Of a stretch of DNA of 50,748 nucleotides, positions 9,076-39,956 are shown piece after piece. The DNA is taken from positions 1 through 50,748 of the forward strand of contig PFUL01000049.1 in NCBI GenBank assembly GCA_002790095.1, written 5' to 3'. This stretch comes from Elusimicrobia bacterium CG_4_9_14_3_um_filter_62_55 (GTDB lineage: Bacteria; Elusimicrobiota; Elusimicrobia; UBA1565). The position numbers and the translations under genes are program-made. A model generated the notes under the pieces. It had not been told where the DNA came from. It made no database searches and saw nothing but the letters and a program-made list of their open reading frames with translations. Position 1 is the first letter of the stretch, and each line of letters opens with the position of its first letter.

Positions 9076-10599
9076 TTACGGATCCGCATATCCGCGGTAA
9101 AACAGCGCCTCGGAGACGTGCGGGTCTTCGATGCTCGCGGAACCGGCAAGATCGGCGAGGGTCCGCGCGACTCGCAGAATCCGGTCGATGCCCCGCGCGG
9201 AGAGCTTACCCCCTTCAACGAACGATTCGATCAGCCGGAGGCTTCCCGCCCCGAGCGGGCAAAGCGTTCTCAATTCGGCGCTCGTGAGCCCGGCGTTCCC
9301 CCCGGGACGATTCAGGCGGGCGGACGACCGCGACCGCGCCGCGACCACGCGCTCCCGAACCGCCGCGGACGGCTCCCCCGCGGCGGGCGCATTCCAATCC
9401 TCAAAGGGAAGCGGGGCCAGCTCGATGCGCAGATCGAAGCGGTCCAGCATCGGACCCGAGACGCGATTGCGGTAGCGCCGCACCGAGGGCTCCGGACACA
9501 CGCAGGGATTTTTCACCCTGCCGGCGCGGCCGCACGGACAAGGGTTCATCGCGGCGACCAAGGAGAAATCCGCCGGAAAGCGAATCGAATCCCGCACGCG
9601 CGTCACCGTCACGGAGTGATCCTCCAGCGGCTGCCGCAGCGCCTCCAGGGCGCCGCGCCGGAATTCCGGGAGCTCGTCTAAAAACAACACCCCGCGATGC
9701 GCCAGCACGATTTCGCCGGGACGACACGCCGGGCCTCCGCCGATCATCGAAAGCGTCGACGCCGTCGCGTGCGGCGCCCGAAACGGACGCTCGCGGGGAA
9801 TTCCGTCGGACGGAGCGCGCAATCCGGCGACGGAATGAATCCGGGCGACCTCGAGCGCCTCGTCTCCCCCCAGCGGCGGAAGGATGCCCGGCAGACGCCG
9901 GGCGAGCATCGATTTCCCGGAGCCCGGAGGCCCGACCATCAGGAGGTTGTGCCCCCCCGCCGCGGAGATCTCGAGCGCGCGGCGCGCCAGCGCCTGGCCG
10001 CGTACATCCGAGAGATCGTACGCGCACGCGCTCCCAGGGCGTTCCGGCGGGGGAAGCTCATCGGACGGCAGGCGCCGCCGCGGGCGCTCCCGATCGCCCA
10101 GGAGGGCGGCCGCTTCGGTCAGCGATCCTACCCCGAACACGGGCAGGCCCGTCAGCGCCGCCTCCGCCGCGTTCGCCGACGGGACGAGAGCGGCCCGCAT
10201 CCCGCACTCGCGGGCGGCCAAAGTCAGCGCGAGAGCCCCGCGCACGGGCCTAAGAGACCCGTCCAAGGCGAGCTCCCCGAACGCGCAAAACCCCGTCGAC
10301 CAGGACTTCGCTTCGATTTGACCCGAGGCCGCCAGCACGCCGAGCGCGATCGGCAAATCCAGATGCGCGCCTTCCTTGCGCTGCTCGGCCGGGGCGAGAT
10401 TGACGACGACGCGCTGATCCGGAAATTCGAAGCCGGCGTTTCGCACGGCGGAGACCACGCGCTCGCGGGCCTCCCGCACCGCACCGCCGGGGAGTCCCAC
10501 GGTCGTGAAGCACGGGAGCCCGTTGCTGAGATCGGCCTCGACGCGGACGAGAAATCCGTCCACGCCGCGCACCGCGGCGGACCACAAGGTCGCGAGCAT
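9076..10599 (-). CDS. comM: ComM/YifB-type Mg-chelatase-like AAA+ helicase
   Basis: 507-residue protein of the YifB/ComM family; in competent bacteria ComM is a hexameric helicase that drives branch migration of integrating DNA. The N-terminal Lon-protease-like domain (VRGVDGFLVRVEADLSNGLP, then FTTVGLPGGAVREARERV) is followed by the Walker A GPPGSGKSMLARRLPGILPP, the Walker B GVLFLDELPEF, and the Cys-rich AAMNPCPCG insertion with CVCPEPSVRRYRNRVSGPMLDRFD. A C-terminal Mg-chelatase helical domain ends the protein. Together with dprA it supports a transformation capacity. Confidence 0.92.
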   Translation of the reverse strand: MLATLWSAAVRGVDGFLVRVEADLSNGLPCFTTVGLPGGAVREARERVVSAVRNAGFEFPDQRVVVNLAPAEQRKEGAHLDLPIALGVLAASGQIEAKSWSTGFCAFGELALDGSLRPVRGALALTLAARECGMRAALVPSANAAEAALTGLPVFGVGSLTEAAALLGDRERPRRRLPSDELPPPERPGSACAYDLSDVRGQALARRALEISAAGGHNLLMVGPPGSGKSMLARRLPGILPPLGGDEALEVARIHSVAGLRAPSDGIPRERPFRAPHATASTLSMIGGGPACRPGEIVLAHRGVLFLDELPEFRRGALEALRQPLEDHSVTVTRVRDSIRFPADFSLVAAMNPCPCGRAGRVKNPCVCPEPSVRRYRNRVSGPMLDRFDLRIELAPLPFEDWNAPAAGEPSAAVRERVVAARSRSSARLNRPGGNAGLTSAELRTLCPLGAGSLRLIESFVEGGKLSARGIDRILRVARTLADLAGSASIEDPHVSEALFYRGYADP

Positions 10600-16478: not shown

Positions 16479-16484
16479 ATTCAT

Positions 16485-20873: not shown

Positions 20874-20879
20874 CGTAGG

Positions 20880-21479: not shown

Positions 21480-21480
21480 C

Positions 21481-22626: not shown

Positions 22627-22627
22627 C

Positions 22628-23113: not shown

Positions 23114-25078
23114 TCAAGCGTTTTTCGCGCCGACCGCGGCCGACGCGCGCTCCGTGGGTATCACGAAGAAAAAAGTACTTCCCTGCCCCGAAGACGATTC
23201 GAACCAAATCCTTCCCCCGTGCCGATCCACGATCTGACGGCAGATCGCAAGTCCCAGACCCGTACCGGGCGCAGGCATCGCGTTCCGGTTGGAAGCCCGG
23301 AAAAATTTCTCAAAAACCCGTCTTTGCTCATCCTCCGGGATCCCGATTCCGGTGTCGGAAACCCGCGCGAGAAGGCCTTCGCCCTTATTTTCGAGGCCGA
23401 CGGTCACCCGTCCCCCCTCCGGGGTAAATTTTATCGCGTTAGAGACCAGGTTGTCGAATACCTGTCCGAGCCATTGGGTGTTTCCGTGGGCCGCCGGGAG
23501 CTCTCCCGAGGCGGAAAGTTCGAGCGTGATGGAGCGGGCTTGCGCCGCGAGACGCTGTCCCTCGAGGCATTTTTGGGCCGTCTCGACGAGATCGATGCTT
23601 TCCAGCTCGATTTGGACGCCGCCTTCGAGCTTCGAGAGGTCCAGGAGGTCCGTCACCAAAAGGTGAAGCCGGTCGGCGGCGCTCTTGACGATTTTCAAAA
23701 ACCGGCGCTGCTCGGCCGGAATCTCGCCGGCGTCCCCGTCCAACAGAACGGCCAAAAAACCCTGGATCGAGGTCAGGGGAGTTTTGAACTCGTGACTCAC
23801 GGTCGAGACGAATTCATCCTTCATCGAATGCATCCGCTGCAGCTCGAGGTTCGTATCCTGAAGTTTTTTGGAAAGCACGGCGCTCTCGATCAGCACCGCC
23901 GCCTCCTCGGCGATCACCTGCACGAAGCCGATATGATCCTCCGAAAATAGATCCTTCCTAAAGCTCCCGACCCGCATCACGCCGATGCGCTGGCTTTCAA
24001 CGCGCAGCGGCACGACCATCAGCGAGCGGCAATTCCACAGCTTCGCGTAGTGTGCGATCACATCGGGGTCGTTCTGAGCGTCCCCGGTGATGAACGGCTT
24101 TCCAAAACGGAACACCCGCACCGAAGAGGAATGTTCGTTGGTCAACGGAATCCGGTACATACCGTCGCTTTCGTTGACCCCGAAGGCGCCCGGCAAGGTG
24201 ACGAGTTCGCCGGTGTCCTGGTCGAAGGTCAAAAACGCGCAGATGTCCGCATCCAGGGATTTCGCGACGATCCCGATGATCGCCGACAAGACGTCCGACT
24301 GATCGGGGTGCTCGGAGATGATGTCCGTCACCTCTTGAAGCGTCCTCATCTCCTTCGCCCGCTGAATCAACTGAAGATTCGTTTCGTCGAGGCGCTGCAT
24401 CGTCACGTCCAATCCGCCCTGAAGCCGCTCTCGGGCGCGATCGAGTTCCCAGAAGCGGGAAGCGCGGTCGGCCATCGACGTAAAATAAGCCGCGAGCGTT
24501 TCGAGCGGCTCCTTGTGCCGGTCGGCGGCCTCGGCGTTGGATCCGTACGAAACCGCGGAGATAAGACCCCACAGTCGGTCCCGCGTTCCCCAGGGGACGA
24601 AGCGAATCGCACGGGCCCCGCGCACCGACAACAACCGCCCGCAATTTCCCGGGAGTTCGCCGGAAACCTTCCAACCCTGTTCCGTGGAGAAGGCCTTATC
24701 CCAGAGGGCCTCCTCGAGTTTTAGATCCGCGGGCTCCAGGGATTCCAGCGATCCCGAACGAACGATCAGGTCTCCGTCCGTGCCGTCGAAAGCGCCCAGG
24801 GGCGCGCGGCGGAACCAAACGAACACATCGAGTCCCCCGAACCGGGCCAAGAAGCGGTCCACCCCGAACTGCACGGATTCGGCGAAAGATTCGGGGGTCT
24901 CCGGCATGGGATGCGCCTCGAGGAGTTCTTGGGAGAACGCGCCCCGCTCGCTCCATTCCAGCCGCTCTTGGGAATACTTCGCCTCGACGGGGCCGAGCAT
25001 CCGGAAACGCAGGAACCAATAGACCGCGCCGATGCCGACGATCGTCGACGCGGCGAGCGCTCCGAAAAGCGGGTTCAC
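23114..25078 (-). CDS. GAF-domain sensor histidine kinase
   Basis: 654 residues starting at a GTG that overlaps the upstream stop (GTGA). One N-terminal membrane segment (LFGALAASTIVGIGAVYWFL), an acidic linker region, a coiled coil, then a GAF domain (DVLSAIIGIVAKSLDADICA to FVQVIAEEAAVLIESA). The kinase core has the H box SHEFKTPLTSIQGFL, N box NLVSNAIKFTPEGG, G1 DTGIGIPEDE, F box FEKFFR and G2 GTGLGLAI, so it should be active. No receiver is adjacent. The frame continues upstream to 25381, but that part lies inside the previous gene. Coupling to pilT and the DnaA-like gene suggests control of, or by, surface motility. Confidence 0.9.
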   Translation of the reverse strand: MNPLFGALAASTIVGIGAVYWFLRFRMLGPVEAKYSQERLEWSERGAFSQELLEAHPMPETPESFAESVQFGVDRFLARFGGLDVFVWFRRAPLGAFDGTDGDLIVRSGSLESLEPADLKLEEALWDKAFSTEQGWKVSGELPGNCGRLLSVRGARAIRFVPWGTRDRLWGLISAVSYGSNAEAADRHKEPLETLAAYFTSMADRASRFWELDRARERLQGGLDVTMQRLDETNLQLIQRAKEMRTLQEVTDIISEHPDQSDVLSAIIGIVAKSLDADICAFLTFDQDTGELVTLPGAFGVNESDGMYRIPLTNEHSSSVRVFRFGKPFITGDAQNDPDVIAHYAKLWNCRSLMVVPLRVESQRIGVMRVGSFRKDLFSEDHIGFVQVIAEEAAVLIESAVLSKKLQDTNLELQRMHSMKDEFVSTVSHEFKTPLTSIQGFLAVLLDGDAGEIPAEQRRFLKIVKSAADRLHLLVTDLLDLSKLEGGVQIELESIDLVETAQKCLEGQRLAAQARSITLELSASGELPAAHGNTQWLGQVFDNLVSNAIKFTPEGGRVTVGLENKGEGLLARVSDTGIGIPEDEQRRVFEKFFRASNRNAMPAPGTGLGLAICRQIVDRHGGRIWFESSSGQGSTFFFVIPTERASAAVGAKNA

Positions 25079-26958
25079 GCGAAACTCCCCGGTGCCGGAG
25101 CGCACTGCAGATCCAAAAACGCGTGCAGATGAAATTTCGGATCGTGCACTCTGCGATAGGGCATCCACGCCAACGGCACGCCCCCCTCGCCGAGCAGATG
25201 CTGCACCACGTAGCGGCAATCCCCTTCGTTCTCCGCCAAATCGGCCCCCGGCTGCGGCCCGAGGACCAGTGCTGCGTCCGCACCGCCCTGATAGGCCTCT
25301 TCGGCCAGCACGAACGGCACGGTCGGAGCCGGGTCCACGGCGTAAGGCCTGCGAACCGCCTCCGCGAACGGCCACGACCACGAATTAATTTGTCCCGCGA
25401 CCGCGACCCGGCGAAGCGTCCATTCGGCGTGGGCTTCCTGGCCTTGAGGGTAAAGCAACAGCAGGCGGCGCGCGCCCCCCGCGGGAGACGGTGTTTCCGC
25501 GGATTTTTTCTCCAGCTCCTCGGCGGCGATCACTTGCGGCTCGCCGGCCTCCGCCTGAAACAACGTCGGGTGAAGATCGGCGAGCCCCGCAGGCTGTCCC
25601 GCTGCGAGGCGCAAGGATTCGAGCGCTTTCGCTCGGCGCAGCGTCCATCCGAGTTCCCCAAAAATACCGACGGCGGACTGCGCGAACGCCGAGACTTCGG
25701 CCTCCACGCCGGTCAATCCTGCGCTCTCCATCGCGCCTTTGACCGCCTCCAGCCTCTTGTCGCCGGTCGCGACCTTCACTTCGACCGTGTGGCCGCCCGA
25801 AATCCTGATTTCCAGCGCCTGCTCGATCGCAACGATCATTTCCGCTGGGTAGGCGGAAGCCAAAATAATCTGCTTGCCCGCGTCCATAAAGGATTTAAAC
25901 AACGAGACGAGCTGCGTTCGGTTGTGCTCCGCGATCCCCATGAATTGCAAATCATCGACGATCAACGCGCGCGCCTTCGCGGCGAATTCCTCGAGCTCCT
26001 GGAAACGATTTTCCGAAACCGCCCACGCCGCCGCGCGCGCGAGTCTCGAACCGCTGGTGATCCAGACGGGTTCCTCGGGAGTTTGCTGCTGCAGCTTGTC
26101 GGCCAAGGCGTGGAGCAAATGCGTTTTTCCGCTGCCGGGAAGTCCCGAAACGAACAGCGGCTGATAGAGCGAACCCGGACTGGTCAAAATCGACATCCCC
26201 CCGGCATGCGCGAAGCGGTTGAACGCGCCGACTATGAAATTGTCGAGAGAATGCGAAACGATCCGTTCCGTCACCGCCCCGAACAGAGCCTGGGACGCGA
26301 GCTTATGGGAGACGGATTCGACGGCTTCCCCCGGCCCGGCGCCGGCGAGCGGGACCGCTTCGGGCGTGGACGGAGTGATGCCGGGCGCAACCTCTTGGCG
26401 CAAGGCAATGGGCGGACCCTGTCCCGCGAACGGGGCCGGACTCGCTTCAGCCGTCGGCGACAGGTTCAAACCGCCCGCCGACGCCGCGGGTTCGGGGACC
26501 GGAGATAGAGAAATCGGGACGACGTCGTCGGCCGCGGTTTCTTCGACGGTCGGGACGGGCGCGGGAACCGGGGCGGGCATGGGCGCTTCCTCGACAGGCG
26601 CCGGTCCGTCGCCGGACGCGAGGGCGAGCTCAATCGGCAGACTCCCGCCCTCCCCGAAACCGGAGTCCGGCTCCGGCTCCGCTGCGGGAGCGGCCTTGGG
26701 AGTGGAGGCCGAAGCGGCGTCGGGATGGATGCTCCGCATTTCCGATTCAATCTCGGAGAGCTCCTCGTCACTGAGCTTCCGAAGCGACAAACTGAAGTTG
26801 AACTCGGCGTTCCCCTTTTCTTTCTTCGGGCGGCCGCAGACCGCTCCCAGCTTTCGTATCAGACCGTGCACGTCGGCCAACGACCCCTTGACGAACAAGA
26901 GCCGTCGGTTCGGGTCTCCCTTCGTAGGCGACTCTTCGATCTTCCATCGGCTGAGCAT
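25075..26958 (-). CDS. DnaA-like AAA+ protein with novel flanking domains
   Basis: 627 residues in three parts. Residues 1-80 (WKIEESPTKGDPNRRLLFVK, LIRKLGAVCGRPKKEK) form a small alpha/beta domain of unknown family. A Pro/Ala-rich linker of about 110 residues follows. Residues 230-420 are an AAA+ module like DnaA or Hda: LYQPLFVSGLPGSGKTHLLH (Walker A), ARALIVDDLQFMG (Walker B), IILASAYPAEM (sensor I). The DnaA origin-binding helix-turn-helix is absent. The last 140 residues (RRLLLLYPQGQEAHAEWTLR, DAALVLGPQPGADL) are unclassified. Overlaps both neighbours, within the pilT operon. It is not the replication initiator; a motility or polarity role is inference. Confidence 0.7.
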   Translation of the reverse strand: MLSRWKIEESPTKGDPNRRLLFVKGSLADVHGLIRKLGAVCGRPKKEKGNAEFNFSLSLRKLSDEELSEIESEMRSIHPDAASASTPKAAPAAEPEPDSGFGEGGSLPIELALASGDGPAPVEEAPMPAPVPAPVPTVEETAADDVVPISLSPVPEPAASAGGLNLSPTAEASPAPFAGQGPPIALRQEVAPGITPSTPEAVPLAGAGPGEAVESVSHKLASQALFGAVTERIVSHSLDNFIVGAFNRFAHAGGMSILTSPGSLYQPLFVSGLPGSGKTHLLHALADKLQQQTPEEPVWITSGSRLARAAAWAVSENRFQELEEFAAKARALIVDDLQFMGIAEHNRTQLVSLFKSFMDAGKQIILASAYPAEMIVAIEQALEIRISGGHTVEVKVATGDKRLEAVKGAMESAGLTGVEAEVSAFAQSAVGIFGELGWTLRRAKALESLRLAAGQPAGLADLHPTLFQAEAGEPQVIAAEELEKKSAETPSPAGGARRLLLLYPQGQEAHAEWTLRRVAVAGQINSWSWPFAEAVRRPYAVDPAPTVPFVLAEEAYQGGADAALVLGPQPGADLAENEGDCRYVVQHLLGEGGVPLAWMPYRRVHDPKFHLHAFLDLQCAPAPGSFA

Positions 26959-27866
26959 TAACCGGACCTCAGCAGCATCAATTCGAGCAGGATCTCGATG
27001 GCGGCGGTGCGGCTTCCGATATCGCCGACGGTGAAATTCTTAAAGTAGATGTCCTCATCGTCGCACAGACTCTCGAGGTCCCGCTTTTGGTCCTCGGAAA
27101 GCCCTTCGAGAATCGCGATGACGCCCGCCGTGTTCGTTTTCTTAAGGTGCTCTAAAAGTGCCGGGGCTTTCGTCGTCGGGGTCACCGTCGCGACTACCGA
27201 CCGGTGCAGGTACAGCGGCTTTTTCGAGACGCCTCCGGAAACGGTCCCAATAAAGTGGATCAGCTTTTCAATAGCCTCGCGCTGGCTCGACGAATAGAGA
27301 TACGCGATCCGTCGGATCTGATCTTTCGGAGTTTTCTCGGGGATCGGTTCGGGATCGATTTGAAGTTCCCCCGCAACGGCCGCTGCAGGCTTCGCGGATT
27401 CGGGTGCCGCCGCCGCCTGAGGAGGCGCCTCGGCTTCCGCCCTGGCCTTCGCCTGCGCCTCGGCTTCTGCCCTGGCCTTCGCCTGCGCTTCGGCTTGCGC
27501 CTTGGCCTTCGCCTGCGCCTCGGCTTGCGCCTTGGCCTTCGCCTGCGCCTCGGCTTGCGCCTTGGCCTTCGCCTGCGCTTCGGCTTCCGCCTTGGCCTTC
27601 GCCTGCGCCTCGGCTTCTGCCCTGGCCTTCGCCTGCGCTTCGGCGTCCGCCTTGGCTCGCGCCGCCTCGACCTTGGCTCTCACCTCGGCTTCCGCTTTCG
27701 CGGCGATTTCCGCCGGGGACGGACCTGAAGGAACGGGTTCCGATGGGGGCGAAGGCGAAATCGGCCGTGCCGCCGCCGCATCCTCGGATCCCATCGAGGA
27801 AAGGATGTCGTCCAAGCCTTCGAGGATCTCTTCGATTTCCTCGTCGGATTTTCCTTCGGCGCTCAT
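26958..27866 (-). CDS. Ala/Lys/Glu-rich coiled-coil protein
   Basis: 302 residues. An acidic N-terminus (SDEEIEEILEGLDDILSSMG) and Pro/Ser linker lead into about 100 residues of decapeptide repeats (AKAKAQAEAQ), a long single helix or coiled coil. The C-terminal 130 residues are a folded alpha/beta domain (RRIAYLYSSSQREAIEKLIH, PALLEHLKKTNTAGVIAILE, FKNFTVGDIGSRTAAIEI) unlike families I know. Its first codons overlap the end of pilT by 4 bases and its stop overlaps the DnaA-like start, so it probably works with PilT and the AAA+ protein, perhaps as a spacer or scaffold. Confidence 0.65.
   Translation of the reverse strand: MSAEGKSDEEIEEILEGLDDILSSMGSEDAAAARPISPSPPSEPVPSGPSPAEIAAKAEAEVRAKVEAARAKADAEAQAKARAEAEAQAKAKAEAEAQAKAKAQAEAQAKAKAQAEAQAKAKAQAEAQAKARAEAEAQAKARAEAEAPPQAAAAPESAKPAAAVAGELQIDPEPIPEKTPKDQIRRIAYLYSSSQREAIEKLIHFIGTVSGGVSKKPLYLHRSVVATVTPTTKAPALLEHLKKTNTAGVIAILEGLSEDQKRDLESLCDDEDIYFKNFTVGDIGSRTAAIEILLELMLLRSG
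27421..27660 (-). repeat. Eight-unit 30-bp tandem repeat inside the coiled-coil gene
   Basis: Units of exactly 30 bases start at 27451, 27481, 27511, 27541, 27571, 27601 and 27631, with a partial first unit at 27421. Each encodes ten residues of the AKAKAQAEAQ type. Units differ by a few third-position and Gln/Glu changes, so copy number could vary by slippage without breaking the frame. Confidence 0.9.
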
Positions 27867-28951
27867 TGAGTCGGGACGCCTCCGGCCTGCTTCATCTTCA
27901 ACTGAAGATCCTCGGGGTTCGTCGCGTTCTCCAGAACGTCGCCTTCATCCACCTTGCCTTCCTGATACAGGCGGAGCAATTGCTCGTCGAACGTATGCAT
28001 GCCGTAGTACTCGCCGGCCTCCATCGCCTTGCGGACATCGTTATTCTTGCCTTCGAGGATGTTCCGACGGATGCCGCTGGTCGAAATCATCACCTCGGTC
28101 GCGGGAAAACGAGAGAGACCGTCCTTGGAAATAACCAAGCGCTGGGCCACGACCCCCTTGAGCACGAGCGCCAACTGCTGACGGATCTGGGAAATTTGCC
28201 GGTCCGCAAAACTGTCGATGATCCGGTCGATCGTTTGAACCGCGTCGATCGTGTGAATCGTCGAAAGGACGAGATGACCGGTTTCAGCGGCGGTCAGCGC
28301 GGCTTCGATCGTCTCAGGGTCGCGCATTTCTCCGATAACGACGACATCCGGATCTTGGCGCAGCACGTACTTCAGCGCCTGCGCGAAGGACGCCGTGTCG
28401 CGGCCGACCTCGCGCTGGACGATCGTCGATTTCAAATCTTCATGGAAAAACTCGATCGGGTCTTCGATCGTGATGATCCGGTGGTGTTCCCGGCCGTTCA
28501 TGTAATGGACGAGGCTGTTCATCGACGTCGTCTTCCCCGCGCCGGTAATCCCGGCGAACAGAATCAACCCGCGAGTCTCTTTGGAGAGCCGTTCCATCGC
28601 CTTCATGGGGAGGTTCAATTCCTCGAAAGTCCGCAGCTTGATGGGAACGACGCGAAGAGAGAGCGCCACCGTACCCCGCTGGCGGAAAACGTTCACGCGA
28701 AAACGCGAGACCCCGGGGAGACTGTAGGCCAAGTCCATTTCGTCGGATTCAGCGAATTGTTTCTGCTGTTCCGGGTTCATGATCGTCTTGACCATTCCTT
28801 CGATGTCTTCGGCTGACAACTTCTGAAGTTTGACCGCCGGAACCAGCTTCCCGTGGACGCGAACGGCGGGACTCGAACCGGCCTTAAAGTGGATGTCCGA
28901 TATTCCCTTTTCGACCATCAATTTCAGCAACGCCGCCAAATCCATCGCCAT
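27863..28951 (-). CDS. pilT: PilT twitching-motility ATPase
   Basis: About 362 residues, the family length. PilT is a hexameric ATPase that retracts type IV pili at the inner-membrane face. It shows the N-terminal ISDIHFKAGSSPAVRVHGKL, Walker A GITGAGKTTSMNSLV, the Asp box ITIEDPIEF, Walker B region DPDVVVIGEMRDPETIEAAL and the His box LVLSTIHTIDA. The ATG at 28951 is chosen because GGAGG lies six bases upstream; a longer frame begins at 28972. It heads an operon with the coiled-coil, DnaA-like and kinase genes and stands just downstream of the microcompartment operon. Confidence 0.95.
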   Translation of the reverse strand: MAMDLAALLKLMVEKGISDIHFKAGSSPAVRVHGKLVPAVKLQKLSAEDIEGMVKTIMNPEQQKQFAESDEMDLAYSLPGVSRFRVNVFRQRGTVALSLRVVPIKLRTFEELNLPMKAMERLSKETRGLILFAGITGAGKTTSMNSLVHYMNGREHHRIITIEDPIEFFHEDLKSTIVQREVGRDTASFAQALKYVLRQDPDVVVIGEMRDPETIEAALTAAETGHLVLSTIHTIDAVQTIDRIIDSFADRQISQIRQQLALVLKGVVAQRLVISKDGLSRFPATEVMISTSGIRRNILEGKNNDVRKAMEAGEYYGMHTFDEQLLRLYQEGKVDEGDVLENATNPEDLQLKMKQAGGVPTQ

Positions 28952-29030: not shown

Positions 29031-29303
29031 TTATTGGGAAGTACGTACGATGCGGACGCCCTTCAACGCGAGCCAGTCTAAAGCGAGCGGGCTGACGATC
29101 GCGTCTTTCGGAATTGTAAGTCGTTTCATCTGGGGCGTCAATGCCTGTTTTATCTCGTATTCCGTCAAAAAACGTCGTCCGCATAAGGGTTTCAGGCAAC
29201 CGGGATCCTGATGCCCATCGCGGGGAACGGAAGTAGGCGCGGGAACCGGCACAGGCGCCAAATGCCGCCGCAGCACGTCAATCAAGTCACTTCGCGTAAA
29301 CAT
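29031..29303 (-). CDS. Small BMC-associated protein with a targeting-type N-terminus
   Basis: About 90 residues. It opens with an amphipathic helix (MFTRSDLIDVLRRHLAPV) like BMC encapsulation peptides, then a Pro linker, a Cys pair (DPGCLKPLCGRRF) and FLTEYEIKQAL followed by IPKDAIVSPLALDWLALKG. From memory, this second half recalls short segments in ethanolamine-utilisation and other BMC accessory proteins. The ATG at 29303 is chosen because the residues before it look unstructured. It lies 65 bases downstream of a BMC-H gene on the same strand, the last gene of the operon. Exact function unknown. Confidence 0.6.
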   Translation of the reverse strand: MFTRSDLIDVLRRHLAPVPVPAPTSVPRDGHQDPGCLKPLCGRRFLTEYEIKQALTPQMKRLTIPKDAIVSPLALDWLALKGVRIVRTSQ

Positions 29304-29368: not shown

Positions 29369-29662
29369 TCAGACCTTGATGGAAATCTTTCCCAGATAGG
29401 CTTCAAGATCGGCCGCCGGGCGCGGAATGACGTGCACCGCGACCAGTTCTCCGACCCGCTGCGCGGCAGCGGCGCCCGCCTCAACAGCGGCGCGCACCGC
29501 TCCGACTTCTCCCCGGCACAGCGTCGTGCACAACCCTGAGCCGATTCGCTCGTAGCCGATCATCTTCACCTTCGCGGATTTCGCCATCGCATCGGTCGCT
29601 TCGATCATTCCGACGAAGCCCTTCGTTTCGATCATGCCCAACGCGTCTTTCATTTCAGCCAT
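29369..29662 (-). CDS. BMC-H hexameric shell protein
   Basis: 97 residues with one BMC domain (Pfam00936): [74 protein letters not shown]. Hexamers of such proteins tile the flat facets of the shell, with the central pore between strands two and three (here around GSGL). The closing [12 protein letters not shown] is a short extension. It resembles the BMC-H at 34367 (both share GEV and AAAQKVGEL-type segments), so the operon has two facet proteins. Confidence 0.93.
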
Positions 29663-29986: not shown

Positions 29987-30982
29987 CTAATAATTCCCTC
30001 CGCCGGACGGCTTGGCATCGGTCACGATCGCGACGCTCGCCGAAGTGCCGAGTCGGGTCGCCCCCGCCTCGATCATCTCTTTCGCCGCGGCGGTATCCCG
30101 AATTCCGCCGGAGGCCTTCACGCCCATCTTCGGGCCGACGGTCTCACGCATGAGACGGATATCCGCGGCGGTCGCCCCTCCGGGGCCGAATCCCGTCGAG
30201 GTCTTCACGAAATCAGCGCCGACCTCCTTGGACATCGCGCAGGCGCGGCGTTTCTCATCGTCGTTGAGCAGCGCCGTCTCGAGAATCACTTTCAAAACCT
30301 TGCCCCGCGTCGCGTCGCGCACGGCCTGGATGTCGCCCCGCACCAGCGCGTCATTGCCGGATTTCAAGGCGCCTACATTGATGACCATGTCGATTTCGTC
30401 GGCCCCGTTGGCGATCGCGTCGCGCGCCTCGATCGCCTTGACCGTCGGCGTCGTGGAGCCCAGCGGAAAGCCGATTACGGTGCAGATCTTCACGCCTGTG
30501 CCGCGCAAAATCTGGGCGGCGAAAGAGACGTAGCTCGGATTGATGCATACCGAAGCGAAGCAGTACTGACGCGCGTCCTCGCATAGTCTCGCGATTTCTT
30601 CCTGCGTGGCTCCCGGCTTGAGCAAAGTATGATCCACGTAGGCCGCGATTTGGTTGCACTGCTTGGTCGGGTGACAAACCCCGATGCGGTCGGCGCCGAT
30701 CGCCTTGAGTCCGCTTGCCTTATGGCAATGCGGGCAGTCGGGGCCGTGCGTATGATCTTCGGGCTTGACCGCCGGCACGGATTCGGGGGGGATCGGGTTC
30801 CCGCGGGACACGTTCCATCCGCCGAAGACCTTCCCGGCCGTCCCGGTCGTGACCCGGACGCCCCCTTTGGAAACTGTAGGCGACGGACAGCCGCAATCGG
30901 TCTTAGTCTTGGCCAGGTACCCTTTTTCCGCCAGCACCCGCACGACGACCTCGATGATATCCTTGAGTTCCTGTTCACGCAT
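29987..30982 (-). CDS. deoC: Deoxyribose-phosphate aldolase with BMC-targeting extension
   Basis: 331 residues against about 220-260 for ordinary DeoC. It splits 2-deoxyribose-5-phosphate into glyceraldehyde-3-phosphate and acetaldehyde. The core from about residue 112 has [13 protein letters not shown], the proton-relay Asp198 in ADEIDMVIN, the Schiff-base Lys260 in [10 protein letters not shown] and Lys289 in GVKASGGIR. The first 110 residues are extra: an amphipathic helix ([20 protein letters not shown]), a typical encapsulation peptide, then a linker rich in Cys and His (CGC at 30-32, [12 protein letters not shown] at 77-88, CHPTKQC at 103-109). This makes it the core enzyme feeding aldehyde into the shell. 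Confidence 0.95.
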
Positions 30983-31271
30983 AGCGTTTCTCCTTCCCCC
31001 GCAGATGCACTGAATCGATAATCCCGCAAATGAGAGTGCGGACCGGCGCCGTCTCGTCTCCTAAAATTTGCCTGGCGGAACCGCCTTCGTCGAGCACGAG
31101 CACGATGCTGCCCGGCCCCGACTGCACGCCCCCGTCCAGCGCCAGCACCGCTTCGCCCAAAGGCTTCTCGGTTATCGGATCGATCGGACGCACGAGCAGC
31201 AGGCGCTGGTTGTTCAAACTCCGGTGCTTGTACTGACCCCACACGTTTCCAACGACTTCGCCGACGAACAT
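30975..31271 (-). CDS. BMC-P pentameric vertex protein (EutN/CcmL), copy 1
   Basis: 98 residues from the ATG at 31271; a longer frame to 31472 reads through the neighbouring gene and is rejected. EutN/CcmL signature: [70 protein letters not shown], and [15 protein letters not shown]. Pentamers cap the icosahedral vertices. It overlaps deoC by 8 bases and follows another BMC-P gene with a one-base overlap. Confidence 0.93.
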
Positions 31272-31564
31272 CAGGCGCTCCTCTCCCGCTCGCGGAAATC
31301 GCGGACCTGATGGCCTTCGACGATGCCGATCACAGCCGCGTCCACCGGCGGCAGGTCGCTGAAGGCGACGGCCGCTTCGCGCGAGGCGACCCAATACACG
31401 AACTCCGAAGAGCCGGACCCGCAGGAGTCGGCGGCGACGACCGGGTCGCCCTTGACCGCGCCGGTCTCCCAATCAAGGGGCTGAATCAAAAGCAGCGTCT
31501 TGCGGTCGAGCGTCGCATAGTGGCGCGAACAGGTGACGCGTCCGACGATTCTCGCGTATTTCAT
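31271..31564 (-). CDS. BMC-P pentameric vertex protein, copy 2
   Basis: 97 residues. The EutN/CcmL fold can be followed: KYARIVGRVTCSRHYATLDR, KTLLLIQPLDWETGAVKGDP, VVAADSCGSGSSEFVYWVAS and PPVDAAVIGIVEGHQVR. It is the most diverged of the three vertex proteins here; the usual GVGAGVGDWVLV loop reads SCGSGSSEFVYWV. Start and stop each overlap the neighbouring gene by one base. Confidence 0.88.
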   Translation of the reverse strand: MKYARIVGRVTCSRHYATLDRKTLLLIQPLDWETGAVKGDPVVAADSCGSGSSEFVYWVASREAAVAFSDLPPVDAAVIGIVEGHQVRDFRERERSA

Positions 31565-32016
31565 CAGCGCATGTACTTCCGTTCGATGGCCAAAATCTTG
31601 CCGAGTCTCCGATCGTGGCGTCCGCCGCCGTACTTCGACGCGAAGAACGCGTCGCAGATCGCGTTGAGCGCGATTTCCCCATGGGTCTTTCCGCCGAGAC
31701 AGACGACGTTCGCGTCGTCGTGCTCCATCGCAAGCTTGGCGCTGACCACATCGTAGGCGCAGACCGCGCGCACCCCGGTGATCTTATTGGCCGCAAGCGC
31801 GACGGCGCCCCCGAATCCGTCGAGAAGAACGCCGCGTTCGAACTCTCCGCGGGCGACCGACTCCCCGACGAGTTGGGCCACATCGGGATAGTCCACCGCG
31901 TCGGTTGAATAGCATCCGAAATCGGTCACGTCATGGCCATGCGCTTGGAGATACTTCTTGAGCTTCTCCTTGGCTTCGAAGCCGCCGTGATCGGAACCGA
32001 TGACCAGCCTCGCCAT
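31564..32016 (-). CDS. RpiB-like sugar-phosphate isomerase with altered active site
   Basis: 150 residues, normal for RpiB/LacAB. It has VIGSDHGGFEAKEKLKKYLQ (Asp9, His10), DYPDVAQLV, ALAANKITGVRAVCAYD and ANVVCLGGK. RpiB interconverts ribose-5-phosphate and ribulose-5-phosphate using a Cys base in CGTGIGM. Here that segment reads LLDGFGGAVALAANK, so the Cys is Asp66 and the anion-hole Thr is Phe. Mycobacterial RpiB uses a Glu base from elsewhere, so Asp66 might serve, or the substrate may differ. Such RpiB-like genes accompany DeoC in sugar-phosphate BMC loci. No encapsulation helix is visible. Confidence 0.85.
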   Translation of the reverse strand: MARLVIGSDHGGFEAKEKLKKYLQAHGHDVTDFGCYSTDAVDYPDVAQLVGESVARGEFERGVLLDGFGGAVALAANKITGVRAVCAYDVVSAKLAMEHDDANVVCLGGKTHGEIALNAICDAFFASKYGGGRHDRRLGKILAIERKYMR

Positions 32017-32020
32017 GAGA

Positions 32021-32572
32021 TTACTTTCCCACCGTCTGCAAAAGCTGCGGATCGGCCTGAGGGATGACGATGTAACTGACGAGTTGTCCTTCGGGAACGA
32101 CCTGGATTCCCGCCGCCACCGCGGTCCGCACCGCCCCGACCTCCCCGGACATCGACACGTAGCCCTTGCCGCCCGGCAGCACCGCCTTCGTCTCGATCAA
32201 ATGAACCTTCGCGGCCTTCGCGGCCTCGTCGGCCGCGTGGATCGCGGCGATGGCGTCCTTCGTTTCGATCATACCGAACGCCTCCAGCTTCTCGACGCCG
32301 ACGCGCGTCTCAAGCGTCGCCATCACCTGCTCGTGGACGTTTCTGATGATGAATTTATGGATCAGCGTCTTCTCGGCGATCCGGAGACCGGCGCGCATCG
32401 CAGACTCGACCTCGCCGACCGGACCGCGGATCAAAATCGTATATTTTCCGCGGGCGATCACCTTGCCGGCGACGAGATCGACGCCGGCCTCCTTGACCAT
32501 CGCGTCCGAGGCTTCGACGCCCTTCGCCAGCGAGGATGTTTCGATCAGTCCGATGGAGTATCCGGTTTGCAT
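32021..32572 (-). CDS. BMC-T tandem-domain shell protein
   Basis: 183 residues with two BMC domains: residues 1-90 (MQTGYSIGLIETSSLAKGVE, ILIRGPVGEVESAMRAGLRI) and 95-183 (KLEAFGMIETKDAIAAIHAA, KGYVSMSGEVGAVRTAVAAG). Trimers of BMC-T proteins act as pseudohexamers and often provide gated or larger pores. No Cys for an Fe-S cluster (as in PduT) is present, so a cluster-based electron port is unlikely. Placed between rpiB and the aldehyde dehydrogenase gene. Confidence 0.93.
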   Translation of the reverse strand: MQTGYSIGLIETSSLAKGVEASDAMVKEAGVDLVAGKVIARGKYTILIRGPVGEVESAMRAGLRIAEKTLIHKFIIRNVHEQVMATLETRVGVEKLEAFGMIETKDAIAAIHAADEAAKAAKVHLIETKAVLPGGKGYVSMSGEVGAVRTAVAAGIQVVPEGQLVSYIVIPQADPQLLQTVGK

Positions 32573-32582
32573 GTAGTTCCTC

Positions 32583-34031
32583 TTACACGATCCTGAAATA
32601 ACCGACGAGACTGCACTGAAGCGGCCGCACGAAATGCGTCGCCTGGGTCAATCCGTCGCCGGTCGGGGTTCCGATCGAAAGCGTGGCGTAGCCTTCGCCC
32701 ATGCCGAGCCCGTTGAAGTTCGGCGCGTTTTTCACGAAGATCGAGCACGCCATTCGCCGCCCCATCTTTGTGAGATTTTCGACATTCATCGAATACATCG
32801 AAGCGGTGTGATGATTGTAACCCTCCGCGTGGTAGGCCAGTTCGATGGCCTTGTCGACGCAGGAGACGGAGGTCACGGGGAGAACAGGCATCAACTGCTC
32901 GGTCCAAATCCACTCGTTGTCGTGGTCGACGAACGACCACAGCAGGCGCGTTCCTGCGGGAACGTCCAGCCCGATCCCCCTTGCGATCACCGCGGCGTCC
33001 TTTCCGATGTACTTCCTATTGAGCTTCGGATCCTTACAGCCCTTGCCGCCCTCGATGATCACTTCCTTCGTGAGCCTGCCCAACTGCTCTGGGTTCAACT
33101 CGTAGGCGCGCGGGTCCGAGCGCAGAGCGGCCAGAAAGCGATCCTTGATCGCGTCGACGAGGATAACTTCTTTTTCCGCCGTGCAAAGCACGTTGTTGTC
33201 GAACGAGCAGCCGGTGACGACGCCTCGCGCCGCCTCCTCGACCTTCGCGGTTTCGTCGACGACCACCGGCGGATTCCCCGGACCGGCCGCGATGGTCTTG
33301 CAGGTCTTGCCGGAGGTCATCGCCACCTTCACGATGGCGGGACCGCCCGTCACGAGATTGACCGGAATCGCCGGATGAGCAAGCAGGGCTTTGGTGTTCT
33401 CCTGCGAGGCCGGCTCGACGACCGTGATGAGGCCGCGCGGACCGCCAGCGGAAACGATCGCTTCGGTGAGAAGCTTCATCGTCGCGCGGCAGCAGCCGCT
33501 TGAGGCCGGATGCGGCGCAAAAATCACGCTGTTGCCGCCCGAGAGGATTGAAATCGCGTTATTAATGATCGTCGACGTCGGATTCGTAGACGGGGTAACG
33601 GCGGCGACGATGCCGAACGGCGCGTATTCGGTGATCGTCAGCCCCTTGTCGCCGGTCCGCGCGACGGCGCGGAGCGCTTCGGGTCCGGGGGTTTTTTTCG
33701 CGGCGAGAAGATTCTTGCGGACCTTATCCTCGTAACGGCCCATGCCGGTTTCCTCACGGGCCATCTTCGCAAGCGGCTCGGCGTTGTCGATCGCGGCCTT
33801 GCGCATCGCCGCGATGATCGATTCACGCTGCTCAAGCCCGAGGTCCTGAAACACCCGCTGAGCCGTTCCGCTGGCATCGACGGCGGCGTCAAGATCCTGG
33901 AAGACGAAGGACTCCGATGAGCCCGGAACGGAGGACGCCCCGGCGGCCGACGCCGCCGGAGGCGGGGATCCGTTCTGTTCCAAGCGCTTGAGAACCTCGG
34001 TTACGACGGTCGCGATCGCGTCTCTATCCAT
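32583..34031 (-). CDS. pduP: CoA-acylating aldehyde dehydrogenase (PduP/EutE type)
   Basis: 482 residues. It oxidises acetaldehyde (or a related aldehyde) to acyl-CoA with NAD. The catalytic Cys283 is in CSFDNNVLCTAEKEV, the BMC-type motif; NAD-binding segments VTPSTNPTSTIINNAI and VNLVTGGPAIVKVAM are present. The first 20 residues (MDRDAIATVVTEVLKRLEQN) form an amphipathic helix joined by a Pro/Ala/Ser linker, a standard encapsulation peptide. It should take the acetaldehyde from DeoC. No alcohol dehydrogenase accompanies it, so internal NADH must be reoxidised by another route. Confidence 0.94.
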   Translation of the reverse strand: MDRDAIATVVTEVLKRLEQNGSPPPAASAAGASSVPGSSESFVFQDLDAAVDASGTAQRVFQDLGLEQRESIIAAMRKAAIDNAEPLAKMAREETGMGRYEDKVRKNLLAAKKTPGPEALRAVARTGDKGLTITEYAPFGIVAAVTPSTNPTSTIINNAISILSGGNSVIFAPHPASSGCCRATMKLLTEAIVSAGGPRGLITVVEPASQENTKALLAHPAIPVNLVTGGPAIVKVAMTSGKTCKTIAAGPGNPPVVVDETAKVEEAARGVVTGCSFDNNVLCTAEKEVILVDAIKDRFLAALRSDPRAYELNPEQLGRLTKEVIIEGGKGCKDPKLNRKYIGKDAAVIARGIGLDVPAGTRLLWSFVDHDNEWIWTEQLMPVLPVTSVSCVDKAIELAYHAEGYNHHTASMYSMNVENLTKMGRRMACSIFVKNAPNFNGLGMGEGYATLSIGTPTGDGLTQATHFVRPLQCSLVGYFRIV

Positions 34032-34676: not shown

Positions 34677-35315
34677 TCAAACGATGTGTACGAAATCTCC
34701 GTTCTTCAGCCAGGCGGCGTTGGCTTCATCCAAATCCACGTGAAACTCCAAAGCGAATTGATCTGAGACCCGGGCGAGGCATTGCTCGAACACCGTCTCG
34801 CGCGGGCCGCCGATGCCGGCGCGCACGCGAAGCATTTCCCCGCCCTTGATGCCGAATTTCTCGGCGTCGCGCGGGTGAAAATGGACGTGACGCTGCGCGA
34901 TGATCGCCGCATCCTCGACGTCCACATGGCCGCGAGGACCATGCAGGCGCAGGGGCGCGGCGCCTTCAAGCTTTCCCGAACCTCGAACCGGAGGCTTGAT
35001 GCCCAACATCGAGGCGTCCGTTCGAGAAATCTCCACCTGAGTCTTGGAGCGGAACGGCGCCACCAAGCGAATGCGGTCGAGTCGGCCCTTAGGCCCCTCC
35101 ACATCGACGGTTTCCGTCGCGGCCCAAAAGCCCGGCTGAAGGATGCGGCGGTATTCGGTCGGGTCCTTTTCGCCGAATAAAATCCGCCAATGCTCCTCGG
35201 TGATATGAAAATGCCGGTTGGAAATCCCGACCGGGATCGGATGCTTCGACCGCGCGAGACTCGTCTCCAACTCCGAGACGATTTGCGCGGCGGCTTCGGC
35301 TCCGAAGGGAAGCAT
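34677..35315 (-). CDS. pduL: PduL-type phosphotransacylase
   Basis: 212 residues. It converts acyl-CoA and phosphate to acyl phosphate and free CoA, recycling CoA inside the shell. Two metal-binding patches typical of PduL are present: NRHFHIT (His35, His37) and [16 protein letters not shown] (His143, His145, His147), with [20 protein letters not shown] between them. The N-terminal helix [18 protein letters not shown] is a likely encapsulation peptide, which marks a BMC-lumen enzyme. No acetate kinase is encoded in this window, so acetyl phosphate is used elsewhere. Confidence 0.95.
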
Positions 35316-35316
35316 C

Positions 35317-36096
35317 TCAGTTCGCGGCGGGCACCTTGAATCCGATAATGCGGGAAAAACCGTCGACCTTAAGGCTCGCTCCGCCGACCAACGCCCCGTC
35401 CACGTCCGGTTGGGACATCAATTCATCGATGTTGTCGGCCTTCACCGAACCGCCGTAGAGGATTCGCATGCCCTGCGCGAGCGCGTCGCTGTAAAGAGAA
35501 GCGACCTGCTTGCGAATGAATAGATGCGCCTCCTGAGCCTGCGCGGGAGAAGCCGTCTTTCCGGTTCCAATCGCCCAAACGGGCTCGTAGGCGATCACGA
35601 GCATGGACAAATCCACCGGAGCGAAACCGTCCAGCGCCCCCTTCAACTGCGTCTCCAACACGCGCCAGGTTTGCTGGGATTCCCGCTCGTCGAGAGACTC
35701 CCCCACGCAAACGATCGGCAATAGCCCGACCTTCAGCGCGGCAGCGAGGCGGTCGTGAACGGTCTTATCGGTCTCCCCGAAAAACTGCCGGCGCTCGGAG
35801 TGCCCGATAATCGCCGCGTCAACGCCCAACTCCTTTAAGGATGCGGCGGCGCATTCCCCGGTGAACGCCCCGCTCTCCGCCCAGTGCACGTTCTGAGCGG
35901 CGCAGCGAATCCGGCTGCCCTTCACTGCTTCCGCGACCGCGGCAAGCAAGGTGAACGGAGGAGCGACGATCGTTTCAACGCCCGTCGCCTTCGCGGCAGC
36001 GTCTTTGAGACCCTCAACGAGTGCGTTCGCCCCGTTGAGGTCCAGGTTCATCTTCCAGTTTCCAGCGATCAGGGGTCTTCGAAGGGGTGAGCTCAT
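35317..36096 (-). CDS. tpiA: Triosephosphate isomerase
   Basis: 259 residues, standard TIM barrel. Catalytic Lys in GNWKMNL, His in IIGHSERRQFFGETD, Glu in VIAYEPVWAIGTGKTAS; phosphate loops LYGGSVKADN and GALVGGASL. It interconverts glyceraldehyde-3-phosphate and dihydroxyacetone phosphate. As the first gene of the microcompartment operon it would draw off the triose phosphate that DeoC produces. No added encapsulation helix is seen, so it may act outside the shell or double as the cell's main enzyme. No Shine-Dalgarno sequence is visible before the ATG. Confidence 0.96.
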   Translation of the reverse strand: MSSPLRRPLIAGNWKMNLDLNGANALVEGLKDAAAKATGVETIVAPPFTLLAAVAEAVKGSRIRCAAQNVHWAESGAFTGECAAASLKELGVDAAIIGHSERRQFFGETDKTVHDRLAAALKVGLLPIVCVGESLDERESQQTWRVLETQLKGALDGFAPVDLSMLVIAYEPVWAIGTGKTASPAQAQEAHLFIRKQVASLYSDALAQGMRILYGGSVKADNIDELMSQPDVDGALVGGASLKVDGFSRIIGFKVPAAN

Positions 36097-36819: not shown

Positions 36820-38337
36820 TCACTTGGCCCCGGCTCTCGCCAGGTCCGGGACCTCGATCGGACTGTAGCGGCGGGCGCACCAAGCCAGCACGTCGCGGAC
36901 CAGTTCCCTGGTTTTAACCGGGTCCGTCCCTTCCGCGAACGCCGAGTATCCGTCGCCGCCCCAGACCATGAAATCAGCCGCAGTCACGGAGTAGGTTTCA
37001 TCGTCGTCGAGCTTTCGTCCGCGCACGCGAATCGACGACAAGCGCTTTCCCCGCGGACCGGCTTCATTCCAGACGTATTCGATCCCCGACGTCTGCAGAA
37101 CGTGCGGCGCGAAGGACACCCCGTGCTCCAGAATCTTGCGCACGCTGGATCCCCGCATATAGAGGGTCATGAGATAGTTGTCGAAGGGCATCATCTCAAA
37201 GACGTTTCGCAGCCGAACCGGGCCCTCCGCCAAACCGCTTCGGAGGCCGCCTCCGTTCAAGAAAGCGATATCCGTCTTCGTCCACTTGCGTTCGCAATCG
37301 GTCGCCCAAGCGCCTGCGGGAGAAAGACGCCGATGATCGGTCTCAAGCTCCGCGGCCGCCCGCCCGATCACCACGTCCAATTCCCGCCCGACTTCCCGGC
37401 GATAGCGTTCGACAATGCGCGCGACATCCGGGTCCTCGCCGACCGCGTCCACCCAAAGCGGGCGCACTTCTCCTGAGCGGGACACCATCTTCCGGGTCTC
37501 GTCGTCGAATTCCAAGGTCGCGATCCCGACGGATTTCAAATAGGCTCCCGCGTTGACGATCAGAGTCCCCGAGGGTTCGGCGACGGGATTCGGGATCGCC
37601 GCATGCGTGTGCCCCCCCACGATCAAATCGATTCCCTCAACTGCGGCCGCGATCGCGCGATCCCCTTCAAACGGCGGGCGGGAGGCGCTTTCCTGTCCCA
37701 CATGAGTAAGCGCGATAATGATCTCGGCCCCGCTTTTCCGCAATTTTGCCACGGCTTCCTTCGCCGTCTCGATCTCCCCGGCGAACAAAAGCCCGGCGAC
37801 GCTGTTGGGGAAAACGCGTTCGGGCACGGTGCGGGTAACCATCCCGAAGATGCCGATCTTAATGCCGGCCACGGTCTTTAGAATATGGGGTTTTACGTAG
37901 TCGACGCCCTCCCCGGTCGAAACACGGCGAATGTTCGCCCCGAGCACGGGGACGCTGATCTTCCCGATAAGTTCCCGGAGCGTTTCCTCTCCGAAATCGA
38001 ATTCATGATTGCCGAGGGCGACCGCGTCGTAACCGAGGGAGTTGAAAATCTCGGCCAACGCCGCACCCCGCGAAAAATTGCCTTCGGGGGTTCCCTGAAA
38101 CCAATCCCCCGCGTCAAGCACCAAAGACGGTCCTTTCGCGCGCTCCGCGCCGATGACCGCGGCGAGAGCGGCCGCACCTCCGATGACGCGCCCGCCGGCC
38201 TTCGGCTCGGGGCGGGACATGATCCAGCCGTGAATGTCGTTGGTATGGACGATTCGAAGCGGGATCGTTTTCGCGCCGACCGCGCTCGAGAACAGGAAAG
38301 CGCACAAAAAGGCCGCCGCGCAGCGCGGGGCCCTCAT
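36820..38337 (-). CDS. Secreted 5'-nucleotidase (UshA family)
   Basis: 505 residues with a signal peptide (RAPRCAAAFLCAFLFSSAVGA). The metallophosphatase domain has the full metal set: HTNDIHG, DAGDWFQG, LGNHEFDFG, LTHVG and VGGHTHA. The C-terminal 5_nucleotid_C domain has NGGGLRSGLAEG and WGGDGYSAFAEG, the substrate clamp. It removes phosphate from external nucleotides in the periplasm. It overlaps the DUF47 gene by 4 bases, so it is co-transcribed with phosphate uptake and lies next to the deoxyribose-phosphate compartment. Confidence 0.93.
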   Translation of the reverse strand: MRAPRCAAAFLCAFLFSSAVGAKTIPLRIVHTNDIHGWIMSRPEPKAGGRVIGGAAALAAVIGAERAKGPSLVLDAGDWFQGTPEGNFSRGAALAEIFNSLGYDAVALGNHEFDFGEETLRELIGKISVPVLGANIRRVSTGEGVDYVKPHILKTVAGIKIGIFGMVTRTVPERVFPNSVAGLLFAGEIETAKEAVAKLRKSGAEIIIALTHVGQESASRPPFEGDRAIAAAVEGIDLIVGGHTHAAIPNPVAEPSGTLIVNAGAYLKSVGIATLEFDDETRKMVSRSGEVRPLWVDAVGEDPDVARIVERYRREVGRELDVVIGRAAAELETDHRRLSPAGAWATDCERKWTKTDIAFLNGGGLRSGLAEGPVRLRNVFEMMPFDNYLMTLYMRGSSVRKILEHGVSFAPHVLQTSGIEYVWNEAGPRGKRLSSIRVRGRKLDDDETYSVTAADFMVWGGDGYSAFAEGTDPVKTRELVRDVLAWCARRYSPIEVPDLARAGAK

Positions 38338-38939: not shown

Positions 38940-38950
38940 TTCGGCTCATT

Positions 38951-39955: not shown

Positions 39956-39956
39956 C

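Follow-up and report, generated by a model that had tools for sequence, protein, structure and literature searches.

What could join a PilT-type motor ATPase, a DnaA-like ATPase and a sensor kinase in one set of overlapping genes? The question is raised by a locus of Elusimicrobia bacterium CG_4_9_14_3_um_filter_62_55 that lies in a stretch of 50,748 nucleotides (assembly GCA_002790095.1, contig PFUL01000049.1, positions 1 to 50,748; hereafter, the window). On the minus strand of the window, four genes follow one another. The first encodes a PilT-type ATPase, here PilT-B (27863..28951; ATG at 28951, stop at 27863), that matches TIGR01420 with 430.1 bits against a cut-off of 319.1. The second encodes COIL (26958..27866; start at 27866, stop at 26958), which consists of a helix motif, an Ala-rich linker and a C-terminal domain. 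The third encodes a DnaA-type AAA+ protein (25075..26958; start at 26958, stop at 25075) with PF00308 at residues 236-392 (101.5 bits), and the fourth a GAF sensor histidine kinase (23114..25078; GTG start at 25078, stop at 23114) with GAF, HisKA and HATPase_c domains and, as read off the sequence, a single N-terminal hydrophobic stretch. A preliminary description of this DNA had reported that the four genes overlap by 1-4 bases, and the overlaps are indeed 4 bases between pilT-B and COIL (ATGA), 1 base between COIL and the AAA+ gene (TAATG) and 4 bases between the AAA+ and kinase genes (GTGA). Based on the recurrence of this arrangement and on its neighbors, we tentatively suggest that the four genes encode a signal-controlled pilus-retraction unit for the uptake of DNA, either as food or for transformation.

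Recurrence of the four-gene arrangement in Elusimicrobiota

PilT-B is encoded in 71 of the 340 genomes of the phylum at E<=1e-108 and, window genome included, in 35 of the 57 genomes of the close group; the corresponding phylum tally for AAA proteins (329/340) also counts DnaA. The PilT-B loci examined comprise 35 in the taxonomic order of the window (the window and 34 others, of which one misses the phylum threshold) plus every one of the 37 outside this order. COIL and/or the AAA+ protein is encoded after PilT-B in 62 of the 66 loci with enough sequence, and the four exceptions make up family f10. Within the order, COIL follows PilT-B in all 30 loci with at least 1.1 kb of downstream sequence, the other five being cut by contig ends. 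Outside the order, COIL and/or AAA follows in 32/36 loci (COIL in 20, AAA in 30), with L206 counted by a weak COIL match alone and L218 cut. The kinase gene lies directly after the AAA gene in 36 of the 47 PilT-B loci in which the AAA gene is complete and followed by at least about 1.3 kb of sequence (20/22 in the order and 16/25 outside); at several outside loci the kinase core matches well and the GAF part does not.

Thus, the arrangement recurs across Elusimicrobiota, a bacterial phylum that has received little study, and is not unique to the window genome, a case that the preliminary description had named as refuting its proposal. Its suggestion that the products work together also gains from these counts: conservation of the four-gene arrangement, including the position of the kinase gene in 36 of 47 loci, makes a joint role likely. 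Judged from the sequences, this recurrence across the phylum means that the arrangement is not a product of chance. A late insertion of PilT into the order was considered and is ruled out, since PilT-B also accompanies COIL/AAA in further families and in other classes. At closer range, G001, the only other genome of the same genus among those searched, has a contig that matches the window, and a wider scan of genome contigs gave one matching locus, in the same-genus genome.

PilT-B, and AAA+ and COIL as putative partners

PilT-B is one of seven PilT-family matches in the window genome at E<=1e-60. Its orthologs in 34 other relatives (three of them partial) are 59-74% identical to it, and the other PilTs among those listed are at most 47% identical. 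In a tree, an ultrafast bootstrap (UFBoot) of 100 supports the separation of the PilT-B sequences of the order (36, two of them partial duplicates) from 34 further PilTs of the phylum; after removal of the duplicates and addition of the 37 outside sequences, 71 PilT-B sequences, f10 included, were separated from the 34 others with a FastTree support of 1.0. Among ten genomes searched for all PilTs, PilT-B is present in four and absent genome-wide from six that also lack it at the locus and whose best PilT is at most 46% identical. The ATPase motifs are well kept: Walker A, Asp box, Walker B and His box are all intact in the window protein, and each is kept in 34/34 sequences of the order; outside the order and f10, Walker A and the Asp box are kept in 33/33, the His box in 32/33 and the strict GExRD pattern in 24/33. 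Thus, PilT-B can be assigned to the PilT family on its motifs and profile match, and it may retract pili. It also goes with pili: pilM is found (E<=1e-20) in 67 of the 71 PilT-B genomes, the other four being 72-85% complete, and in family f8, which has no PilT-B, only in G137 and G138.

The f10 PilTs (L200, L201, L211 and L213) were considered as another paralog, an option ruled out by the tree, which places them inside the PilT-B clade. None of the four has the His-box pattern (0/4), and they have no COIL, AAA or deoC/rpiB neighbors.

The AAA+ protein was modeled from 31 sequences, with a pLDDT of about 85-97 in the domains. The model has an N domain (residues 1-80), a disordered linker (83-210), a DnaA-type AAA module (236-470) and a C domain of four beta-alpha units (497-618). 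The best PDB match of the core is Aquifex aeolicus DnaA (Z 23.5, root mean square deviation (rmsd) 3.4, 212 residues aligned). The preliminary description had placed a DnaA-like module without origin-binding domain between two unassigned domains, and this layout stands: residues 1-230 and 480-627 have no match in Pfam or NCBIfam above the curated cut-offs, and no match to domain IV was found in the window protein or in 8/8 relatives scanned. The protein scores 118 bits with the DnaA model TIGR00362 (cut-off 344) and 54.7 bits with the Hda model TIGR03420 (cut-off 194.8), and a separate, normal DnaA of 450 residues is encoded in the same genome. By these profile matches, it is a DnaA-type protein but neither DnaA nor Hda.

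The catalytic center differs between lineages. In the 31 sequences that represent the window's group (30 from the order and one from another family of the class), the Walker A Lys is kept in 31/31 and the first Walker B Asp in 30/31, while the sensor-2 Arg is lost in 31/31 and the Arg-finger position is Arg in only 4/31, the window protein among them. By contrast, the 28 AAA proteins at PilT-B loci outside the order have the Arg finger in 28/28 and the sensor-2 Arg in 27/28, and six of them that were scanned match PF00308 with 215-241 bits. Loss of these two features therefore marks the window's group only and not the whole family. The family looks like a duplicate of DnaA that kept the full ATPase center in some lineages and altered it in that of the window. 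The Walker A pattern is present in 26 of the 28 outside proteins; the two in which it was not found (L192 6471-9239 and L196 6985-8835) are perhaps inactive ATPases, although the L196 protein still scores 239 bits with the DnaA ATPase domain. Apparent internal stops in AAA relatives were traced, in the six loci looked at, to terminal stops that had been read through. At five of the seven loci of family f8, the AAA protein (e.g. L115 7789-11082) has about 1030-1170 residues, including a very long linker; of the other two loci, L121 has it divided between two genes and L118 is cut.

COIL had been described as an Ala-rich coiled coil, a label that did not survive comparison: the middle of the protein is a variable low-complexity linker, Ala-rich in the genus of the window and Pro/Ala-rich, Glu-rich or mixed in relatives, and a coil is not conserved. 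What is conserved is the C domain (residues 183-302), modeled as a four-unit beta-alpha fold with a pLDDT of 89.8, together with a short helix motif at the N-terminus (like EEIxxILSDLDxIL). The C domains of the AAA+ protein and COIL align end to end in hhalign (47 and 34 sequences; 72.8% probability, score 33.2), while the maximum among 150 column-permuted nulls was 17.3 and a reversed control reached 10.3; with shallow alignments the match is weak (3.8%, P 0.0035). Pfam has no entry for this common domain. In some outside lineages, the COIL helix is replaced by an N domain that weakly matches the N-domain profile of the AAA+ protein (13.6 bits in L194, 15.6 in L214 and 26.1 in L210). Thus, COIL and the AAA+ protein look like partners built from one set of domains.

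The nearest PDB folds of the COIL C domain are Argonaute/Piwi MID domains, the 50 VIA matches listed all being Argonaute/Piwi (Z 12.0-13.3, rmsd 2.6-3.0, 115-118 residues aligned). The Foldseek E-value is only 1.2e-4, with lumazine synthase close behind at 1e-3, and PDB sequence searches with both C domains gave nothing credible (best match for COIL, E 0.12, to an unrelated protein). We read the modeled domain as a Rossmann-like fold and do not take the likeness to Argonaute MID as evidence of nucleic-acid binding. Proteins with a COIL-type C domain are also encoded away from the main locus, on different contigs (G015:C175:4201-4554, G030:C17:30459-30809 and G007:C115:1852-2190), and in three f29 loci (L194, L214 and L223) a third protein encoded between COIL and AAA combines an N domain resembling that of AAA with part of a COIL-type C domain.

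The DNA-sugar and comM-dprA neighborhoods

The preliminary description missed what lies on both sides of the unit, namely DNA-sugar genes, here within a microcompartment operon and elsewhere as rpiB/deoC without shell genes, and comM-dprA. In the window, the start of pilT-B is 79 bases from the last gene of the microcompartment operon on the same strand. Listed away from pilT-B, and on the minus strand, this region encodes a conserved 90-residue protein with no Pfam match (29031..29303), whose gene almost always immediately precedes that of PilT-B at PilT-B/BMC loci; a BMC-H shell protein (29369..29662; PF00936, 99 bits); after a small cysteine-rich protein, a DeoC-type aldolase (29987..30982; PF01791, 59.6 bits); two EutN/CcmL vertex proteins (30975..31564; PF03319); the ribose-5-phosphate isomerase RpiB (31564..32016; PF02502, 157 bits); a BMC-T double-domain shell protein (32021..32572; PF00936 in two stretches); a compartment aldehyde dehydrogenase (32583..34031; PF00171, 104 bits); the phosphotransacylase PduL (34677..35315; PF06130, 204 bits); triosephosphate isomerase (TpiA; 35317..36096; PF00121, 314 bits); and a 5'-nucleotidase (36820..38337; PF02872, 120 bits, and PF00149). 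The last adjoins genes for a PhoU-like protein and a Pit-type phosphate transporter (36820-40228, minus strand), possibly a set for scavenging nucleotides and phosphate. The main text of a catalogue of microcompartment loci defines the SPU type by DeoC (PF01791) and RpiB (PF02502) as signature enzymes and proposes that SPU compartments metabolize products of DNA degradation (PMC8217296). The locus in the window has both enzymes together with shell genes and is of this type.

The linkage extends far beyond the window. In the order, PilT-B is preceded, at a distance of 1-316 bases, by the gene for the 90-residue protein or for BMC-H in 33/33 loci with upstream sequence. Among the 37 loci outside the order, 14 have SPU shell genes upstream of PilT-B, and 16 have rpiB or deoC within 2.5 kb but are free of shell genes; of the rest, two (L206 and L207) and the four f10 loci have neither, and one is cut. 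Shell-less here refers to the locus only, and the BMC-T search (E<=1e-42) missed the BMC-T gene at the locus in G240 and G242. A 4-base overlap (ATGA) joins the end of deoC to the start of pilT-B in L191 and L196. Thus, PilT-B goes with deoxyribose/ribose-phosphate genes whether or not a shell is encoded at the locus. Even the AAA gene by itself keeps such company: in six of the seven f8 loci (L115-L117 and L119-L121; L118 is cut), tpiA-deoC directly precedes it, although genes for shell proteins, PilT-B, COIL or the kinase were not found next to it; the f8 genomes G137 and G138 have a BMC-T gene elsewhere.

Downstream of the unit, the window encodes a ComM-type AAA+ protein (YifB/ChlI-like; 9076..10599, minus strand; PF01078, PF13541 and PF13335) and DprA (6481..7347, minus strand; PF02481, 218 bits). 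comM and dprA, often with topA and xerC, lie downstream of AAA in many loci of the class, including those of genus g5 and of families f8 and f9, none of which has PilT-B. ComEC is encoded in the window genome (G000:C80:35744-36508; 119.7 bits against a cut-off of 23) and in 48 of the 57 genomes of the close group; this search also matches in E. coli and so shows the channel, not competence. Between the kinase gene and comM, four genes for putative exported proteins or lipoproteins (19941-23086, minus strand; LPP20-like, LipL46-like, GNA1162-like and CsgG family) lie 3' of the kinase gene. The CsgG and GNA1162-like genes, mostly with the LipL46-like one, recur after the kinase gene in many loci of families f1, f3 and f9, often before comM. 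A protein with a SocA/Panacea antitoxin-like domain is encoded at 15885-16484 on the minus strand (PF13274, 84 bits). No response regulator was recognised among the flanking genes examined around the kinase gene.

Candidate functions and known systems

We suggest, as a tentative model, that the four gene products form one motor unit under the control of a signal. In this model, PilT-B would be a dedicated pilus-retraction ATPase, and AAA+/COIL would be a switch or a DNA-handling part in which the AAA+ protein acts as a DnaA-type nucleotide switch between its N and C domains. The GAF kinase, probably anchored in the membrane, would sense a state and set the unit, which would then drive retraction of type IV pili for DNA uptake. 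The sugars of the DNA would enter the neighboring deoC/rpiB pathway, packed in an SPU microcompartment in the window, and DNA strands would be handed to ComM/DprA. DNA uptake as food is suggested because it is the simplest function that joins a pilus motor, DNA-sugar catabolism and ComM/DprA. A more specific version is rather doubtful: a DNA-feeding machine peculiar to the phylum, in which a kinase-gated AAA+/COIL pair, members of a new domain family, drives a dedicated pilus motor that reels in environmental DNA, and a pathway encoded in the same operon, organelle-packed in the window, burns the DNA sugar. Such a machine would be a direct genetic wire from a surface motor to the metabolism of an organelle.

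Several findings weigh against DNA uptake by such a unit. ComEC does not track PilT-B (29/35 genomes with PilT-B vs 19/22 without), and a 5'-nucleotidase gene is near the unit in 2 of 60 other loci, most of which are too short to reach it. Six of the 69 PilT-B loci with upstream sequence (L206, L207 and the four of f10) have no deoC/rpiB or shell gene in reach. Conversely, several SPU loci are without PilT-B (e.g. L063, L064, L067, L068 and L071), and in family f9, an SPU-like BMC-T gene is encoded outside the AAA locus in 43 of 59 genomes (L226 in G175), with no PilT-B at E<=1e-108. AAA, COIL and kinase genes occur without PilT-B in L105-L114, AAA and kinase genes without it in L066, L070 and L072, and the AAA gene without PilT-B, COIL or kinase gene beside it in the seven f8 loci (L115-L121). 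Because of these AAA-kinase and lone AAA loci, the AAA+ protein is not just a controller of PilT, and the role of AAA+, COIL and kinase is wider. As for the motor, AIRNLIRE is the retraction motif of canonical PilT. The corresponding region is degenerate in PilT-B, with NLIRE in 0/71 PilT-B sequences vs 14/34 other PilTs of the phylum, so that retraction is not secured. More generally, synteny can outlive function.

The alternative that survives best is signal-controlled surface motility or attachment, in which the kinase, via AAA+/COIL, places or times retraction by PilT-B for twitching and the DNA-sugar genes are mere neighbors. It resembles the kinase-steered control of pili in the preliminary description, of which the conserved arrangement and pilM in 67/71 PilT-B genomes bear out one part, while the AAA-kinase loci without PilT-B and the seven f8 loci with AAA alone tell against an exclusive role in pilus control. 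The kinase directly after AAA in 36/47 loci and the co-occurrence with pilM suit motility, and so do the six other PilT-family matches (E<=1e-60), which are available for other jobs. However, the deoC/rpiB linkage also exists at loci without shell genes, including the two 4-base deoC-pilT-B overlaps, and the f8 AAA gene keeps its deoC and comM-dprA neighbors where PilT-B, COIL and kinase are absent. We regard motility as somewhat unlikely.

A role in the service of the organelle, with PilT-B, COIL and AAA+ assembling, positioning or segregating the SPU microcompartment as McdAB does for carboxysomes, is improbable. Throughout the order, PilT-B is encoded immediately 3' of the shell operon, the short amphipathic N-terminal helix of COIL followed by a linker has the layout of an encapsulation peptide, and an SPU-like BMC-T gene is often encoded elsewhere in those f9 genomes that have COIL-AAA-kinase without PilT-B (43/59; L226). 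Yet PilT-B-AAA occurs with rpiB/deoC and no shell genes in 16/37 outside loci, a count at the level of the locus only, and several SPU loci have neither PilT-B nor COIL. The helix motif is likewise kept at the shell-less loci L189, L195, L197 and L220, and an encapsulation peptide at the COIL N-terminus is disfavored on this sequence comparison, though f9 genomes often carry SPU genes elsewhere. About as improbable is that the genes share no function and that a slowly eroding ancestral order happens to keep a PilT paralog next to a DNA-sugar pathway and to comM-dprA-topA-xerC. Neighborhoods of comM, dprA and topA are common in bacteria, and pieces have been lost in different combinations by lineage; against this stand the short overlaps between genes, the mere 6 of 69 PilT-B loci outside a deoC/rpiB/shell context, and COIL and AAA as apparent diverged partners with a common domain. 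Finally, a DnaA/Hda-like regulator of replication initiation with PilT as an incidental neighbor is very improbable, since the DnaA-type core (Z 23.5 to A. aeolicus DnaA), nearly intact outside the order (PF00308 215-241 bits in six; Arg finger 28/28, sensor-2 Arg 27/28), is set against the missing domain IV (window protein and 8/8 relatives), the normal 450-residue DnaA of the same genome, the Hda score of 54.7 bits (cut-off 194.8) and, in the window's group, a sensor-2 Arg lost in 31/31 and an Arg-finger position that is not Arg in 27/31.

If a pilus-retraction unit for DNA uptake is indeed what the four genes encode, SPU microcompartments would gain a possible supply line. It has long been asked whether natural DNA uptake evolved to provide food or to serve sex, and a motor clade that is mostly encoded beside a deoxyribose-phosphate pathway, with comM-dprA near in the class, offers a system for testing it. 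The work also defines a paired domain family, the C domains of AAA+ and COIL, that has no Pfam entry and sits on what appears to be a repurposed DnaA ATPase. Our searches of open PubMed Central (PMC) papers turned up no account of a PilT linked by operon to a microcompartment.

The components have partial counterparts in known systems. The AAA+ protein is like DnaA, Hda and IstB/DnaC ATPases in its DnaA-type core and Walker A/B motifs and, outside the order, also in Arg finger and sensor 2; it differs in having no domain IV and other N and C domains and, in the window's group, in the lost sensor-2 Arg and mostly lost Arg finger. PilT-B is like the PilT/PilU retraction ATPases (TIGR01420) in its full-length family match and intact ATPase motifs but forms a separate clade with a degenerate AIRNLIRE region and an operon with COIL, AAA and kinase beside SPU or deoC/rpiB genes. 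Carboxysome positioning by McdAB, as outlined in PMC13052382, likewise involves an ATPase and a partner with a disordered region that are encoded beside compartment genes. By contrast, the two motor-type ATPases of the window operon are of the DnaA and PilT families and neither is ParA-type, the rest of the genome not having been searched for McdA, and units of this kind also occur at loci without shell genes. With the SPU loci catalogued by Sutter et al. 2021 (PMC8217296), the window shares DeoC and RpiB, BMC-H/T/P, aldehyde dehydrogenase and PduL; the link to PilT-COIL-AAA-kinase sets it apart, words that begin with 'pil' or 'Elusimicrob' being absent from the main text of that catalogue. 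A further counterpart is the use of transformation machinery for nutrition in Deinococcus radiodurans, where DNA-uptake genes serve nutrition according to the abstract of PMC11784314. That abstract mentions no dedicated PilT paralog and no operon link to DNA-sugar catabolism, whereas the two systems are alike in their uptake genes, including pilT, comEC and dprA, and in the use of DNA as food that we propose here for the unit in the window.

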